64,000 nucleotides of DNA from Nitrospirota bacterium (GCA_016180645.1 JACPAV010000003.1:124001-188000); one strand, 5' to 3'. Positions 34,094 to 64,000 are shown, counted from the stretch's first letter. Program-made: numbers and translations. Notes: a model not told the origin generated them from the sequence alone.

Positions 34094-35443
34094 CTACGGG
34101 ACCCGGAAGAACTCGAACTTGACGGCGCCCCGGTTTGCGCCGAGGTTTCGGACGAAGGCGAGGCCCATGTAGATTTCCTTTTCAGCCATCGCCACATCCA
34201 TCACGGGGCTGGTGCCCGTGGAGCCGGGCGAATCCACCAGGAAATCCTGCCATTTCACCTTGCCGTCGTCCACGGAGCGCACCGCGACCTTGAGGGAGCC
34301 GAGCGTTTCGTCCGAGTAGGCCGCGATGGGGATCACGCTGGTGCCGGACTTTCCCGTGCGCTGGACAAGCGAGAGGTCGGCCCCGGCCCCGACCGGACTT
34401 TTCTTGCCGTCCACGATTTCATACGTCCATCCCACCTCGCCGTCGTAGAGGGCGTAGCGGAGTTGGCTGTTGAAGTCATCCCGATAGACCACATGGATTT
34501 TCTTGGGATTGAGGAGATCGAGTTTCATGGCCAGATGGCGGCCCAAGCCGCGCGTTCCCGCGGGGGCCGCGGGGATGTCGTTCTCGGGGTCGTCATCTTC
34601 CTGATTTCTCGCGGCGCCGGTATCGATGAAGGAGATGCACCAACCGGTTTCCGAGACCGTGCCTCCGTTTTCGGGATTGCAGAGGAGGGGATCGGCCACC
34701 GGCGTGCCGTTGGCTACATCTTTCACGGCCAGGCGCGGCAATCCCCCTTTGCCATCCCAGTACGCCAGATACACCACGCCGTTGTGAGCGGCGATGTTGA
34801 TGTACTGGACCTCGCCGCTGGTCCCCGATTGTCCCTGCACGATCGGCCTGCCCTGTTCCACCAGCTCCGGCGCGGTGCCTCCCGGCTGGACGTATTTCAC
34901 CGCCTGAACATCGGAATCCAAGTAGGCGATGTGAACGCGGCGAAGTTTCTTGTCGTCTTCCTCGATGGCGATACGGGCCCACTGGCCGACCGAGCCGGCG
35001 GTGTCGAGGTCGGAGCGGATGGACCACGGTTGACCCGGATCGCGGGTGGCGTACCGGATGTCCAGGTTGGTGCCGTCGAAATACGCGATGTGGGGCCGGC
35101 CTTGGGAATCGACGACCAGGGAGGGATAATCGCCCGCGTCGAACTGCTGGGGTGATTCACCGTCCACTATTTCGCTCGTCCACTTCTCCCCTTTTTCATC
35201 CACGTAGGCGTAGACGAGGTTCCGGTTGGATTGGTCGTAGTAGGCGATGTAGGGGTAGCCGTTGAAGAAGTCGATGGCGATCCGGCGCTGGCCGATGTCG
35301 GCCGTCAGATCGGAGACGTTCTTGTCTTTGATGGTGGGGAGGGGCGTGGGGAAGCCGGCGAAGGGGTCGGTGCGGCCGCAGCTCGCCGCGAGGATGAGAG
35401 CGGCGAGAGTGATGAGTGATGAGTGATGAGTGATGAGTTTCAA
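34094..35443 (-). CDS. Lipoprotein with repeated beta-propeller-like strands
   Basis: From a TTG at 35443 the product has 449 residues and starts LKLITHHSSLITLAALILAASC, a lipoprotein signal. Longer GTG/TTG starts up to 35533 are in frame but add low-complexity sequence. The mature part repeats segments such as YPYIAYYDQSN, RPHIAYFDGTN, RRVHIAYLDSD and KIHVVYRDDFN, the pattern of a multi-bladed beta-propeller of environmental or BNR-type repeats. No catalytic residues are seen. The signal peptide is encoded by four exact copies of a 7-base repeat (35407-35434). Neighbouring genes on both sides are large surface proteins, suggesting a shared envelope role. Confidence 0.68.
   Translation of the reverse strand: MKLITHHSSLITLAALILAASCGRTDPFAGFPTPLPTIKDKNVSDLTADIGQRRIAIDFFNGYPYIAYYDQSNRNLVYAYVDEKGEKWTSEIVDGESPQQFDAGDYPSLVVDSQGRPHIAYFDGTNLDIRYATRDPGQPWSIRSDLDTAGSVGQWARIAIEEDDKKLRRVHIAYLDSDVQAVKYVQPGGTAPELVEQGRPIVQGQSGTSGEVQYINIAAHNGVVYLAYWDGKGGLPRLAVKDVANGTPVADPLLCNPENGGTVSETGWCISFIDTGAARNQEDDDPENDIPAAPAGTRGLGRHLAMKLDLLNPKKIHVVYRDDFNSQLRYALYDGEVGWTYEIVDGKKSPVGAGADLSLVQRTGKSGTSVIPIAAYSDETLGSLKVAVRSVDDGKVKWQDFLVDSPGSTGTSPVMDVAMAEKEIYMGLAFVRNLGANRGAVKFEFFRVP
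35407..35434. repeat. Four copies of GAGTGAT inside a lipoprotein signal peptide
   Basis: Four exact heptamers follow directly after the likely TTG start of the lipoprotein. All three frames of the repeat are open (ITHHSSL), so copy-number change would not stop translation inside the repeat but would change the frame of everything after it. Confidence 0.85.
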
Positions 35444-56973: not shown

Positions 56974-58197
56974 TCAGGCGCGAATTGTAAAGAGGCGCAC
57001 GGGTTCGGCGCGGCCGCGGACCTGGGCCGGTTCGAGTTCGACGGCGCCGAAAGAGGCATCCAATGACTCGGCGACGGCGCCGGAAATCAGGAGGTCTGCG
57101 TTCCGTTCCTTGCACATGCTTTCCAATCGTGAGGCGACGTTCACGGTGTCACCCATCGCGGTGAATTCCGCCCGGGTGCGGCTGCCGATCAGGCCCACCA
57201 CTGCTTCTCCCGCATGGAGGCCGATCCCCATCTTGAGGGTGGGCCGATTCTCGCGCTCACGCCGGGCGTTCGTTTCTCTGAGCGCCGCCCGGAGCGCCAG
57301 TGCGGCGCGGACGGCGTCCAACCGGTGCCACGGGTTCCGATCGGGCGCCCCGAAGATCGCGAACACCGCGTCGCCGATGAACTTGTTCACATGGCCGCCG
57401 TTCTTCTCGATTACGTCCACGCTCATCTGGAAGTGCTCGTTGATGAGTTCGACAAGCTGCTGAGGAGAAAGTTTCTCGGAGAGGGTTGTGAAACCCCTAA
57501 GATCGGTGAAGAGGACCGTGATTTCGCGCCGTTCGCCTTCCATCGCCACCCCCCCTTGCAGGGCGCGGCGCGTAAGAAAATCACCCGTAAACCGGCCGAA
57601 TGTTTCCTGGAGCGACAGCTTTTCCTTGGAGTGGGTGTAGATCCTCCCGGCCTGTTGGCGTAGCGTGCGTGTCATGACGAGCGCCGCCCCGGTTCCGACC
57701 ACCAACCACCCGACGATCGCCAAATCCTCCAGCCCGCGCAGGCCCAGAAACGCGTATTGAGCGGCTACGAGACCCATTCCCAATGCGCCCGAAACGACGC
57801 CCAGCCACGGCTGGTAGAGAAAGGAGGACAGGAACAGATTGAAGACCAACACATACGCGATCGGTCGAACTCCCGTGAACCAGACAAGCCCTGCCGCAAA
57901 GACCGAATTGACCAAATGCGCGCCGACCATGACCTGGAACGGGCAGGGTTTTCTGCGCTCGTGCCATCGCAGAAGGCCGTGCCCCATCGCGCCCAGAGCC
58001 GACCCGGCCGCGATTCTCCATCCCTGTTCCCTCGTCAGGAAAAGATAGGGGAATCCGAGACCCACCGTGAGCCCGACGGCCGCCAGGGAAAGATAGAGAC
58101 GAAATTGCAGCGTGAGAATGGTGTGCCATCCCTCGCAGATTTCGGCCCGGAGTTCCGCGGCAATCGCGGGAGAGGCGGAGTTCGATTCGAGCGACAA
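56974..58197 (-). CDS. Membrane-bound class III adenylate/guanylate cyclase
   Basis: The 407-residue protein has six hydrophobic segments in the first 210 residues, then a short linker helix (YTHSKEKLSLQETFGRFTGDFLT) and a C-terminal class III cyclase domain: REITVLFTDLRGFTTLSEKLSPQQ, NGGHVNKFIGDAVFAIFG (second metal Asp) and GDTVNVASRLESMC. FTDLRGFT and GDAVFAIFG hold the catalytic aspartates. It makes a cyclic nucleotide, probably cAMP, with the membrane part as sensor. The start is uncertain; a TTG at 58197 is the first in-frame start after the upstream gene's stop at 58209. Confidence 0.9.
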   Translation of the reverse strand: MSLESNSASPAIAAELRAEICEGWHTILTLQFRLYLSLAAVGLTVGLGFPYLFLTREQGWRIAAGSALGAMGHGLLRWHERRKPCPFQVMVGAHLVNSVFAAGLVWFTGVRPIAYVLVFNLFLSSFLYQPWLGVVSGALGMGLVAAQYAFLGLRGLEDLAIVGWLVVGTGAALVMTRTLRQQAGRIYTHSKEKLSLQETFGRFTGDFLTRRALQGGVAMEGERREITVLFTDLRGFTTLSEKLSPQQLVELINEHFQMSVDVIEKNGGHVNKFIGDAVFAIFGAPDRNPWHRLDAVRAALALRAALRETNARRERENRPTLKMGIGLHAGEAVVGLIGSRTRAEFTAMGDTVNVASRLESMCKERNADLLISGAVAESLDASFGAVELEPAQVRGRAEPVRLFTIRA

Positions 58198-58208
58198 GGA
58201 AAGAGGCG

Positions 58209-59360
58209 CTAGGAGGGCGACTGGAGGGCCGAGAGGCCGTTGGCGAATGTGGCGTACCCATAAAATGAGGCTACCGTGAACGCCGTTTCGACGAGCTCCT
58301 CGTCCGATGCCCCCTCGGCCTTCAACTTGTGCCCCATCGACCGGAGATGATTCGCATCGCCCGGCTTGGCGGCGCCTCGCGCCCATTCCACGAGACCGGC
58401 TCGTCGCGCATCGGGAATCTCCGGGGAGAGACGGCGCATTTCCCCTTCAACCTGATCTCGCGAACGCCCCAAACGGCCCAGAACCAGGATCTGAAGCTCC
58501 TTGAGATCAGGAGAGCCCAGACCCTCGGCCACGATCAATCCAAGGTAGGATTTCGTAACGGGCTGCAAGGCGCCCTGCTCCAGCATCCGCTGATACCGGC
58601 CCCACGTGGCTTCCAAGACGCCGGGCTGAAACGCCAGCGATTCAAAGAACCCCGGGCAACATCCCAAGAGCGGATGGCGGGTGATCTGCCCGAGGATGGG
58701 CTGGGCTTGGAGAGGCGGAGGCCCGTTCCCCGCATGGGAGGATTCCTTCCTGGCCTTCCGGTTCATCATGAATCGCATGACGGGAATGAGCGTCCTTCGG
58801 CCGAAACCGGAATTCGCTGCATTCACCATTCCATCGAGATCAATGTCGAGCGACGTGGCGAACCTTGTGCCGGTCCCCATGTGCGCGGCCAGCGCGATCA
58901 CGGCGATGATTTCGTCGTCTTTGTATCCTGCATCCCGAACCTTGGCGGCATCCGCGCGACTGATCGTTTCAGGGGATCGGCTGAAGTGCCGGACAAAATC
59001 GAGGATGGCGCGGGTCTTCTCATCAAATTCCGCGGCCTCCATTTCCCGTTTCAGCGCATCGATCTCCCTCTCGGAGAACCCGCTCAGCCGAAGCATCATG
59101 GCCATCGCTCCCATGCAGTACGTACAACTGTGTTCCTGGGCGACAGCGTAGCAGACCAGATTCTTCAGCCGTTCCGGAAGGATCGAAGTGAAGTACAGGG
59201 CTTCCTCTTCCTTGAGCGCCGTCTCCAAGAGGTGGGTGTCATGAGCGAGAACCCGCATGGGATTCGGCACCGCCCCCGCGGCCGCCTTGATTCGCGCGAA
59301 CATGCTCCGGGCCTCGGGCGACGCTTCCGAATCGGTCAATGGCTTGACTACGCTGGGCAT
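58209..59360 (-). CDS. Two-domain AhpD/carboxymuconolactone-decarboxylase-like protein
   Basis: The 383-residue protein holds two AhpD-type helical domains. The first (residues 15-160) has the redox pair in QEHSCTYCMGAMAMMLRLSG (CxxC) followed by a conserved-looking EIIAVIALAA. The second (about 215-375) has KSYLGLIVAEGLGSPDLKELQILVL and AFTVASFYGYATFANGL but lacks CxxC, so only the first is likely to be redox-active. Such proteins reduce peroxides or serve as alkylhydroperoxidase-like enzymes. The ATG at 59360 has no clear ribosome-binding site. It ends 12 bases before the likely start of the cyclase, so the two are probably one transcript. Confidence 0.82.
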   Translation of the reverse strand: MPSVVKPLTDSEASPEARSMFARIKAAAGAVPNPMRVLAHDTHLLETALKEEEALYFTSILPERLKNLVCYAVAQEHSCTYCMGAMAMMLRLSGFSEREIDALKREMEAAEFDEKTRAILDFVRHFSRSPETISRADAAKVRDAGYKDDEIIAVIALAAHMGTGTRFATSLDIDLDGMVNAANSGFGRRTLIPVMRFMMNRKARKESSHAGNGPPPLQAQPILGQITRHPLLGCCPGFFESLAFQPGVLEATWGRYQRMLEQGALQPVTKSYLGLIVAEGLGSPDLKELQILVLGRLGRSRDQVEGEMRRLSPEIPDARRAGLVEWARGAAKPGDANHLRSMGHKLKAEGASDEELVETAFTVASFYGYATFANGLSALQSPS

Positions 59361-59956: not shown

Positions 59957-60001
59957 GGTGACAGTATATTCTATTATAGCCCATAATAGTATACGGTCAC
60001 C
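59957..60001. repeat. 45-base palindromic element, copy 2, between convergent genes
   Basis: GGTGACAGTATATTCTATTAT pairs with its near-complement at 59983-60001 with one mismatch and a short loop. The stop of the sigma-54 activator gene (TGA, 59999-59997) lies in the arm, as in copy 1. The flank ATTATCCC is also shared with copy 1. Confidence 0.85.
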
Positions 60002-62609
60002 CATTATCCCCGCTCACTTTCTCCACGTCGATTTCGTAGCGGCGGATTTCGCGGCGCATCTTGTTGTATTCCATCCCGATGATGCGGGACGCCTCTTTCA
60101 CGTTGCCCTTCGCTGTCCGAAGCGCCTTCACCATGAGCGAAACGGTCAGATCCCGCACGGCATCATCATAGGGCGCCAGGGGAATATCTTTCGTGGCCGC
60201 CGCCTGCGCCCCCGTCGAAAACGGGAGCGGCTCCCCATCCGATACGGCGCTCGCATTGCGGCTGATCCAGTTTTCCAATTCGCGGATGTTCCCGCTCCAG
60301 GTGTGATTCTGGTAGCGGATCATCTCGCGCACTTCCGGCATCCATACATGCCGGTTGTACCGCATATTGAATTCCTCCAGGATAAACGAGACGAGCCAGG
60401 GGATGTCCTCCTTCCGTTCCCTGAGGGGCGGCATGTGAACGGGAATACCGTTCAGTCGGTAGAAAAGATCCTCACGAAAGGCCCCGGAGGCGATCAGTGA
60501 CTTGAGGTCCCGGTTTGTCGCGGCGACAATCCGGACATCGATGGGAATCGATTCGTTCCCCCCGACCCGCTCGATGACGCGATCCTGAAGCACTCGCAGG
60601 AGTTTGACCTGAATCTCCGGGCGAAGGTCCCCAATTTCGTCCAGGAAAAGCGTCCCCAGATGGGCGCTTTCGAATTTCCCGAGCCGACGCTGGAGCGCGC
60701 CCGTAAACGCACCCTTCTCGTGACCGAACAGCTCGCTCTCCAACACGCCGGGCGCCAGGGCGCTGCAATTCACCGCCACAAACGCCTGCTTGGAACGCCG
60801 GCTGAACTTGTGAATCAACCGGGCCGCGAGTTCCTTCCCGCTCCCGCTCTCGCCCGTGACGAGCACCGGACTCTCCACCTGGCTCACGCGGGTTTTCACA
60901 AACTCTGAAATCTCCTTGAGTTTCGGGTTGCAGGTCACGAACGTGTACCGATCATCGATGTCCGCGGCGTATTTCCCGGCACTGTGCTTGATAACGGCGG
61001 AGACGAACGCCTGCGGCGACAGTTCAGAGAGCGAAGGGAGCACGAACGCGTTCGGGGCCTCGGGGACCGCGCTCCCGTCGGAACGCTCAACCACCGTCAT
61101 GTCATACCGCGAGCGTGGGGAATCGTCCCTCTCCTCCAGGGTCGCGAATGAATCGACCTTGAACCACGGTGACACCTTTTTCAGCCACGCTTCGGAGGGC
61201 CGGGGACCCACCAGGGCGATAGCCGGTTTCGGCCACTTCAAGAGATCTTCTCCTCGCTCAACAGCGGGCACTCCCCCGTCCGGCGCAGTCGCGGCGGTCG
61301 GCCCAGGCTGCAACGCGGAAAGACGGTCCTGCGACTCCCCTTCGAGGAATCGCTCGTCCAGAAAACCTTTCAGCCACAAGCCGGCCAGCGTCAGGAGGAG
61401 CACGTCCGCTGAATAGGCTGCCGTCCTCCATGCCATGTTCGATGGGAGCCAGGGCTCGATCAAGGCCACCGAGACGTAGGCGAGAATCGCAAGCACGATG
61501 GCCACCGCACCGTAGAGGATTCCTTTGCGGAAACCTTCGCGGCTGAACGCCATGGAAGGCTCCATCACGCCCAGCAACCAGGCCACGCCCAGGAGCAGGA
61601 TGCCCCCAAGCACGCTATCGAGCCGGACGAGACCGGAGAAGAGATCCTCCAGACGGCCGAGAGCGGAAACGAACATCGGAATTCCCAGCACCGTGGTGAG
61701 CAGCCCTGCCAGGAATAGGAGTCCAATCCAGAGCTTTTCCCGCCGATCCGAGGCGGACCGGTAGGCATGAAGCACGATGAAGGGCTCGACGGCGAAGTAG
61801 CCGATCGAGACGGTCGCATAGACAATCGCGCTCTGAAAAATATCGCTGAAATAGGCGGCATCGAGAACGCTCTCGCCGACCCGGAAATCGCGGTAGACGC
61901 TCATCGAGCGCAGGAGAACGTGGAAGAAGAACATCACGCCCGGAAGGTAGATGAGATAGACGAGCCAGGGACGCTTTTTCAGACCTGTCCGTTCCCGCGG
62001 ATAGGAGAGGGAAAGGTGGAGAGAAACAGGCGGCAGGAAGAGCACCGGACCCATCCAGAGTTGGATGAGCCACGAATAGGGCATGAGTTGAACCCATTCC
62101 TGCAAGACGGTCAGCGCGGGAATGAGGGCACACCCCGTGAGGGCCAGGAGTTGGGCCACGCGGGCCTGCGGTTTCTTCCAGAGAGCCACAAAGCCCGCCA
62201 CGAGGAAGACCAAGCCCGTCACGAACCCGAGCAGGGCCGGACCGAGTCTCCCGTAGGGCTGGAGCGTGAGTGGGCGCTCGATATGCACGCCCGAGTGCTC
62301 GACGGTGAACGTCACTTCCCGTCCCGCTTTGAGGGTCCGGCGAATGAGAAACAATTCCACGATCCCGTGGACATCCTTCCCATTCACGGAGACGATCGTG
62401 TCTCCTCTTTGGAATCCGGCCCGGCCCGCCGGACTCTCCGGATCCACCGAAGTCACCACGGGGCTGAGCGCCGTGTGAAATCCGGAATAAGGCGAGCGAT
62501 AAAGAACGACAAGGGCCACGAAGGCGAGGAGTGTGCCTAGTACCGCCGGCACGCCCAGCCACAGGAGAGGACGCCGGTCCTTGTCCTCCAGCGTCTCGCG
62601 CCAACCCAT
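59997..62609 (-). CDS. PDZ-membrane-sigma54 activator fusion protein
   Basis: The 870-residue protein is an unusual fusion. Residues 16-38 form a membrane helix, 42-108 a PDZ domain ([27 protein letters not shown]), and about 120-390 hold eight or so helices. After a linker comes an NtrC-type AAA+ domain: Walker A GESGSGKE (586-593), GAFTGA (633-638) contacting sigma-54, Walker B LFLDEIGD (654-661), and a Fis-type helix-turn-helix at about 835-865. It should activate sigma-54 promoters from the membrane in response to an envelope signal. The ATG at 62609 has GGAG upstream; a GTG at 62615 overlaps the lolA-like stop (GTGA). The last residues come from the palindrome at 59957. Confidence 0.9.
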
Positions 62610-62611
62610 GG

Positions 62612-63316
62612 TCACTCCGCGGTTCTTGGGGACACGGGTGCGAGACTGGCCCCTCCCAGGAATTCTTCCAAACTGATGATCCGCGTCTTGGGTCCCGGTT
62701 TGTAGGTAAAGGTCTCAACTTCGAATGCCTTTGCCTCTGCAAATCCTTCCAGCTTGATTTTGACCCTCTCTCCCATGGAGCCTTTCATTTCAAATCCGGT
62801 GAGGACGGGCGGATCACCCTTGACGTAGAGTTGGATGGGACCGGTCCGGGTTTCCGCCTTGGGCATGAGCAGGATCAGCCACTCGCCTTCTTTGCCCATC
62901 GCTGGGGTCACCTCGAACATTTTCTTGAAATCCCCCACCCCCGTGAGAAAGGCATAGCCCATCGGCCCGACCGCATCTGGAGCAAAGGCCCATGAAATCG
63001 CTTCATCCCGTTTCCAGTTGACGAGCCAGAGGTTCCGACCGTCAATGATGATGTCGCTCTTGTCCGGGTCTTCGTAGTCCCACCGCATCCTTGATGGGAT
63101 CATGACATTGACCCGCCCCTTGCGGGTGAAGGGCACATCGGAGCGCGGCAAACGCGTTTCTTCGGAAAAACGAGCGGAGTATCCCTTGATGGAACGGTAG
63201 TAAGCCTGTACCCGATCGACGATGTCGCCCGAAGCGTGAGCCCGCGAACCCGTGAGCCCGTGAACCAGTGAACCAGTAAGAATGAGAAGGAAAGTCTGAG
63301 CGGGACGCCGGATCAC
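62612..63316 (-). CDS. LolA-like periplasmic lipoprotein carrier
   Basis: The 234-residue protein has a LolA-type plan after a signal peptide: [65 protein letters not shown] matches the first half of LolA, which carries lipoproteins to the outer membrane. The C-terminal part is less typical, so it may be a LolA-like protein with another cargo. The GTG at 63316 lies in a GTGACCCC repeat and has no ribosome-binding site. The signal peptide ([18 protein letters not shown]) is encoded by GTGAGCCCG/GTGAACCAG repeats. It is coupled to the sigma-54 activator. Confidence 0.82.
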
Positions 63317-63341
63317 GGGGTCACGGGGTCACTGGATCACG
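63236..63341. repeat. GTGA-type tandem repeats in and before the lolA-like gene
   Basis: GTGAGCCCG, GTGAACCAG and related 8-10 base units fill 63236-63280 (signal peptide), and GTGACCCC/GTGATCC units fill about 63310-63341 on the minus strand around the GTG start. Several GTG triplets in the second block could act as starts in different frames. Confidence 0.72.
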
Positions 63342-63343
63342 AC

Positions 63344-64000
63344 TCACGGCCACCAAGGAGGCGAGCCGAATTCTCTGCACAGCGGATTCGTGATGCACGA
63401 GAGATGTCCGCCGGCGTTGACGCACTCCTCCAGGCTGTCCGTGACGAAACCGTCCAGCCGCTCCGAACCGGATTTCCGCCAGATGTCATCATTCACGAAA
63501 CATTCGCACATCATGGCATCCGGATCGGTGGGCGTAACGTTGCGAATGTATCCGTAGCGGAAAAGCGTCCCCGCCTGCTGCTGCGCGGCCTGCGTCAAGT
63601 CGATATCCAGGTACCCGTTGCCTTTCGCGTGGTCGCCTTCGATGGACTCGTCTTCGAATCCATCAAGCCGACGATTGCCCTCCGGACCGTTCGCGTTCGT
63701 CTCCGGACAATAATTGTCTCCGGACGGATCGGGATTCTCGTAGGGATCGTAGCCGTCCTCGGAGGAATTGAAAATTCCTTTGCCGTCGGCGCCGTCCCTC
63801 CCGATATCCTCATAGGGTATCGGCAGGAGGTACCATGCGTGTTGATCGGCATTGTAGGGGCGGAAGCCGGAAAAGTACCGGCCGTCGCGCGTCTCTTTCG
63901 TCCACGACAGTTCCGAGATCAGCGGCGCCCGTGTGTTCTCGGTCCCTTCCTCGCCGGAGCCGAAGCACGTAGCGCCGGGATCCAGCACCATGCACGCCTG
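63344..64000 (-). CDS. Exported Asp-rich protein, N-terminus outside the window
   Basis: The frame is open from the right edge to a TGA at 63344, giving at least 219 residues. The sequence is acidic and beta-rich with FNSSEDGYDPYENPDPSGDNY and six or more cysteines (CECFVNDD, CVNAGGHLSCITNPLC), typical of extracellular proteins. No family is recognised, and no signal peptide can be seen because the start is missing. It ends 27 bases before the lolA-like start, so it is probably in the same operon. Confidence 0.65.
   Translation of the reverse strand, partial: QACMVLDPGATCFGSGEEGTENTRAPLISELSWTKETRDGRYFSGFRPYNADQHAWYLLPIPYEDIGRDGADGKGIFNSSEDGYDPYENPDPSGDNYCPETNANGPEGNRRLDGFEDESIEGDHAKGNGYLDIDLTQAAQQQAGTLFRYGYIRNVTPTDPDAMMCECFVNDDIWRKSGSERLDGFVTDSLEECVNAGGHLSCITNPLCREFGSPPWWP

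Follow-up and report, generated by a model that had tools for sequence, protein, structure and literature searches.

A putative membrane-integrated PDZ-domain sigma-54 activator encoded next to a LolA-like gene in a Nitrospirota bacterium

Sigma-54 activators described so far are mostly soluble. A survey of about 5000 of these proteins distinguished about 136 Pfam architectures and argued from genome comparison for sigma-54 control of the cell exterior (PMC3162934); neither "PDZ" nor "transmembrane" occurs in its main text. No PDZ-containing sigma-54 activator is described in the literature searched, which covered few subscription papers, so that this absence is weak evidence, and nothing on point was found there for PDZ domains with SpoIIE kinases. 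Here we describe a protein of 872 amino acids (aa) encoded in a 64,000-nt stretch of a 4.7-Mb draft genome of a Nitrospirota bacterium (GCA_016180645.1, JACPAV010000003.1:124001-188000; G000:C3:124001-188000 in our numbering; hereafter the window). From its sequence, this protein is most likely a one-component sigma-54 activator that is integrated in the membrane.

Several described systems share parts of this design. Activators of the NtrC/PspF/NifA class have the same AAA+ domain with GAFTGA, Walker A and B, sensor and arginine finger motifs and the same Fis-type helix-turn-helix (HTH) domain, but their input is a receiver, GAF or other soluble domain, whereas the window protein carries a PDZ domain and a ten-helix membrane module. 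In ToxR and CadC, too, a single membrane protein both senses the periplasm and binds DNA. They have one transmembrane (TM) helix and winged-helix domains, in contrast to the ten helices and AAA+ sigma-54 output found here. DegS and RseP likewise possess a membrane-anchored periplasmic PDZ domain; these are proteases, whereas no protease domain was detected in the window protein, whose output would be directly transcriptional. In Escherichia coli, an outer-membrane lipoprotein, QseG, acts through the kinase QseE to drive the sigma-54 regulator QseF (PMC6075780). As in the window, an envelope lipoprotein and periplasmic sensing there feed a sigma-54 activator from one operon, but QseE is a kinase of the two-component type and QseF a separate, soluble activator of the receiver type, in place of one polypeptide with a PDZ domain. 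Two further systems, NlpE/Cpx (PMC6538781) and BfmRS (PMC11784087), monitor lipoprotein traffic. Both resemble the window protein in its proposed job, reporting lipoprotein delivery to the outer membrane, but they are two-component systems, whereas the window protein would be a one-component sigma-54 activator.

The activator is encoded by one uninterrupted open reading frame on the minus strand (59997..62615), which yields a single polypeptide. It starts with a GTG at 62615, and a better-spaced alternative ATG lies at 62609. A full-length orthologue with 56% identity was found in a genome of another genus (G001), which together with the window's own genome makes up our comparison within the phylum. 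The predicted domain order is a TM helix, a PDZ domain, nine TM helices, an alpha/beta linker, a sigma-54 AAA+ domain and a Fis-type HTH, and we regard this anatomy as firm. The sequence-only reading had placed a PDZ domain, a multi-helix membrane part, an AAA+ domain with GAFTGA and a Fis-type HTH in one polypeptide, which the Pfam, motif and hydropathy analyses confirm. The PDZ domain (residues 42-118; 62262..62492, minus strand) matches PDZ_6 (2e-11, residues 53-88) and PDZ_2 (1e-8, residues 51-110). The AAA+ domain (residues 553-800; 60216..60959, minus strand) matches Sigma54_activat (9e-65, residues 563-726) and AAA_lid_14 (2e-12, residues 732-788). All of its motifs are intact, namely Walker A (GESGSGKE at 588), GAFTGA (residues 635-640; 60696..60713, minus strand), Walker B (LFLDE at 656), sensor I (AATN at 698), the arginine finger (FREDLFYRL at 713) and sensor II (GNIREL at 775), and the orthologue keeps every one of them. 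The HTH (residues 827-872; 60000..60137, minus strand) matches HTH_8 at 6e-4 (residues 827-860), under the Pfam cut-off, and the orthologue matches at 1e-5, over the cut-off. RpoN is encoded in both genomes (PF04552, E 4e-59 in the window's own). The AAA+ motifs, the C-terminal Fis-type HTH and RpoN in the host are features of a sigma-54 enhancer-binding protein.

By Pfam, the activator contains neither a receiver domain before the AAA+ domain, as in NtrC-type response regulators, nor a trypsin-like protease domain of the DegS/HtrA type, and both it and its orthologue lack a GAF domain. The position that GAF takes in relatives is occupied by the predicted short cytoplasmic alpha/beta linker (residues 462-552; 60960..61232, minus strand), delimited by Pfam, hhalign and the secondary structure predicted by AlphaFold2 (AF2). 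The strand/helix pattern of the linker had suggested a degenerate receiver. This idea was rejected for lack of support in a weak test: hhalign against eight receivers of the same genome gave a probability of 0.3%, with two query sequences only.

Ten TM helices were assigned by hand from hydropathy read by eye and AF2 secondary structure, and not by a topology program. The single-sequence AF2 model of the sensor had a mean predicted local distance difference test score of 47; its fold is not usable, and it served for helix positions only. TM1 (residues 17-38; 62502..62567, minus strand; by hydropathy) precedes the PDZ domain, and the bundle TM2-TM10 (residues 126-419; 61359..62240, minus strand), which the sensor-family profile described below also covers, follows it. 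If the AAA+ domain is cytoplasmic, ten helices would place the N-terminus inside and the PDZ domain in the periplasm. Lysine and arginine account for 20 of 98 residues in short cytoplasmic loops and ends vs 4 of 56 in periplasmic loops (PDZ loop excluded), and for 14 of 96 vs 3 of 56 in the orthologue. The helix count and the positive-inside rule in two diverged orthologues thus predict a periplasmic PDZ domain and a cytoplasmic AAA+/HTH part. The sequence-only reading had allowed the PDZ domain to face either side; a cytoplasmic PDZ was not obtained in this prediction.

The TM-PDZ-TM module was compared with a wider set of sensors. A profile was built from five sequences (the window protein, its orthologue, a G001 paralogue and two kinases) and searched against 386 genomes sampled broadly from bacteria and 40 genomes of known loci, as well as 379 genomes of the phylum of a Myxococcales locus and 395 genomes of the phylum of a Desulfobacteraceae locus. 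The window sequence is part of this profile, which makes its own profile score circular; matches of the window sequence as a single query provide the independent test. Alone, it matches the paralogue G001:C10 with E 2.6e-14 over residues 15-441, and a kinase in G059 with E 1.3e-10 over residues 14-243. The module belongs to a genuine family of PDZ/multi-TM sensors with swapped outputs, as matches to the full module occur across many bacterial families. The hit counts do not equal counts of PDZ/TM sensors, since many weaker matches cover the PDZ alone or the TM part alone; the PDZ-only matches are probably ordinary proteases, and the TM-only matches are HisKA_7TM-related in two cases. A scan of genome contigs returned AAA+ relatives only, none with the sensor module, and the viral contigs searched gave no match.

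Among the loci fetched and classified, the module is joined to histidine kinase, SpoIIE, GGDEF, guanylate cyclase, Ser/Thr kinase and sigma-54 outputs, so the same sensor module serves at least six kinds of output in many bacterial families. Its PDZ/multi-TM membrane part apparently has no name in Pfam or in the literature searched. Sigma-54 output was seen in the window protein, its orthologue, the G001 paralogue (with GAF), L216, L251, L199 and L201. L216 and L251, from Myxococcota, combine PDZ, GAF and sigma-54 and are the only PDZ sigma-54 forms met outside the window's own phylum; L199 and L201 come from one family and lack a detectable PDZ. The window protein and the swapped-output sensors have in common the TM-PDZ-TM bundle and the P-x-x-G, AG..GD and L-H....P motifs. 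It differs from them in its sigma-54 output, in the lack of GAF, which most of the relatives scanned carry ahead of the output and behind the bundle and which is a common rather than a defining feature, and in the loss of several family signatures (replaced at P339, R348, D353, Q411, R416 and R420). The P-x-x-G motif (residues 42-45) follows directly after TM1, with P42 conserved at 65% and G45 at 86% in the family alignment, and this loop could correspond to the carboxylate-binding loop of PDZ domains. Among solved structures, the PDZ domain is closest in sequence to the one in the site-2 protease aq_1964 (8e-7); MAST kinase PDZs and RseP come next and then, more weakly, DegP. The DegS-like PDZ parallel drawn in the sequence-only reading is weakened, as the domain matches site-2-protease/RseP PDZs better than DegP ones.

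The activator is the last of four genes running in one direction, preceded by genes for an enoyl-CoA hydratase (L031:11131-11892, same direction as the activator; named by eye), a large hydrolase-like lipoprotein and a LolA-like protein. The lolA gene (62612..63316, minus strand) lies directly upstream, and its last bases overlap the GTG start of the activator in a GTGA (62612..62615, minus strand), an overlap also present in the other genus. Its product matches PF03548 at 2e-18 (66.9 bits vs a curated cut-off of 23.6), and its top match in the PDB is a LolA (8orn, 6e-13). It scores 80.9 bits with the NCBIfam lolA equivalog TIGR00547, under the 112-bit cut-off, so membership of the LolA family is safe and a functional LolA is what we infer. 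This gene is the only PF03548 match in each of the two genomes, which are drafts of 97% and 84% completeness in which a second lolA could have escaped detection. LolCE and BamA are present in both. The lipoprotein gene runs past the window, which holds its C-terminal part (63344..64000, minus strand); the whole gene (L031:7344-11036) encodes 1230 aa with a lipobox-type Cys (LLTSAC-D; LLASC-S in the other genus) and ends in FGSPPWWP. The coupled LolA-like gene and the exported protein of the same operon that the sequence-only reading had claimed are thus both borne out. TIGR03502 (VolA/Pla-1 phospholipase) matches the lipoprotein at 1e-9 over residues 64-146 only, with 37 of the 384 bits needed, and hydrolase-like motifs (YGHG, STSLG, STGDMTVP and DQHAWY) were read by eye; no match was found among PDB sequences. 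"VolA/Pla-1-like lipoprotein hydrolase" is a working name that rests on the lipobox-type Cys and these motifs and does not denote membership of that family.

The gene order hydratase, lipoprotein, lolA, activator is identical in G001. The outer neighbours, compared by eye, are GMC-oxidoreductase-like and purH-like genes in G001 and a divergent 1157-aa frame and an EamA gene in the window's genome. Between the two orthologous activators, identity is 78% in the HTH, 73% in the AAA+ domain, 52% in TM2-10, 44% in the PDZ domain, 40% in the alpha/beta linker and 26% in the flexible segment 423-461, the least conserved part. The lipoproteins are about 65% identical over 1206 aa, and the C-terminal FGxPPWWP is kept. 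G001 has in addition a second PDZ/TM sigma-54 activator (L144:236-3202) with GAF and a strong HTH_8 match (2e-14), and no second sensor of this type was matched in the window's genome.

The starts of two genes of this block have an unusual sequence context. The lolA start and signal-peptide region (window 63235-63341) lies within a long imperfect inverted repeat of short GTGA-type tandem units, with 47-nt arms that are 72% complementary and an RNA fold z of -5.7. Such a hairpin would bury the start; the other genus folds more weakly at lolA (z -1.35). The lipoprotein gene start and signal-peptide region (L031:10933-11148) likewise lies inside a GTGA-type imperfect inverted repeat. Three overlapping tandem units, GTGATGAGTGATG, of the repeat type at the lipoprotein gene start are found at window 35409-35435, with 0.14 expected by chance in the window.

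A sigma-70-like sequence, TTGCAA-17-TAGAAT, with 9 of 12 matches lies upstream of the hydratase gene, and the four-gene block is probably transcribed from this sigma-70-type promoter. The activator would then be co-produced with LolA and the lipoprotein, and its targets would be other genes. Autoregulation by sigma-54 was considered and rejected, since the strict scan and the weight matrix did no better than shuffles at the operon and the sigma-70-like promoter fits. A strict -24/-12 search gave 5 sites in the window's genome and 10 in G001, vs 2 and 2 in the reversed control. Two of the five (L167, G000:C36 ~17320, and L169, G000:C41 ~9155) each stand before a lipoprotein-like frame, and the two frames share by eye a segment, GIPLTPEQAALLEGV in one and AVPLTPEQAAMAFGL in the other.

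We tentatively propose, at a strength just below even, that the protein is a membrane one-component sigma-54 activator tied to the lipoprotein or lipid state of the envelope. Judging from the other genes of the operon, the leading candidate for the signal is lipoprotein delivery or lipid state. The sensor would consist of the periplasmic PDZ domain and the ten-helix bundle, connected through the linker to the cytoplasmic part, which would supply an AAA+ ring subunit and bind DNA with its Fis-type domain. The PDZ/TM part may bind a lipoprotein that was not delivered, or the C-terminus of one, or else a lipid connected with the hydrolase; binding might change helix packing and lead to an AAA+ hexamer at the membrane, which would open sigma-54 promoters elsewhere in the genome, and gene expression would track the delivery of lipoproteins or the lipid state of the outer membrane. 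How a ligand would lead to the AAA+ ring is inferred. If true, a single protein would connect the state of lipoproteins or lipids directly with sigma-54 promoters. A narrower version, in which the PDZ domain recognizes the C-terminal end of a client that was not delivered, for instance the lipoprotein of the same operon (conserved FGxPPWWP), as a dedicated lipoprotein-traffic stress sensor driving sigma-54 genes, is quite doubtful.

Several results weigh against this proposal. No strict -24/-12 site lies within the four-gene block; around the operon, a hand-set weight matrix scored no better than dinucleotide shuffles in either genome and, near bamA and lolCE, it gave low scores near threshold only, none above chance. 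The scan for sigma-54 promoters near lol and bam genes suggested in the sequence-only reading thus came out negative at the operon, bamA and lolCE, with the limit that sites deviating from consensus could escape both the strict search and the matrix. A C-terminal Pro is not typical of PDZ ligand ends, and the hydratase in the operon is as much a sign of fatty-acid metabolism as of stress. The AF2 model is too poor for structural inference, and the conservation amounts to two points, two genomes of one small phylum. Near other sensors, including L216 and L251, no lolA was seen in 1.5-kb flanks or in the longer stretches L228-L230, L144, L145 and L260, some of them short and read with a crude gene caller. 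Of the architecture and linkage that the sequence-only reading proposed to look for, the PDZ sigma-54 form does exist elsewhere (G001 and, with GAF, two Myxococcota) and the four-gene block is kept in both genera despite different flanks, but no lolA was seen beside the Myxococcota forms in the stretches examined and the linkage was not seen outside the phylum.

The same observations bear on other explanations. In Vibrio cholerae, VolA is a lysophospholipase at the cell surface that serves the use of lipids. The activator could regulate lipid scavenging, with a lipid or fatty acid rather than stress as the signal: the hydrolase would free fatty acids, the hydratase would act in their metabolism, LolA would deliver the lipoprotein, and the membrane bundle would sense bilayer lipid and switch on uptake and degradation genes via sigma-54. 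The conserved block of hydratase, VolA/Pla-1-like hydrolase, lolA and activator fits this, as does the higher identity of the TM bundle than of the PDZ domain between orthologues. We nevertheless hold it to be somewhat unlikely, because the TIGR03502 match is weak and far under its cut-off, a lolA without a second PF03548 copy is an odd member of a scavenging operon, and a PDZ domain suggests a peptide ligand. That the protein senses another membrane or periplasmic cue, with co-transcription with lolA only setting its level, appears unlikely. Relatives that share this module occur widely, no lolA adjoins them in the stretches examined, and the promoter scans give no tie to lol or bam genes, but the four-gene linkage survived divergence to about half identity and a change of both flanks. 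Cleavage in segment 423-461 might free a soluble activator; this segment looks flexible and is the least conserved, and the site-2-protease-type PDZ similarity is a loose hint. Relatives, on the other hand, keep the module fused to kinases and phosphatases, which signal without release, and proteolytic release seems very unlikely.

Two further genes lie outside the four-gene block. The 1157-aa frame (L031:11969-15442), divergent from the hydratase gene, has a signal-like start and a Cys (FACG) and is possibly another large lipoprotein. Downstream of the block, a membrane adenylate/guanylate cyclase (PF00211, 5e-28) is encoded at window 56974-58386.

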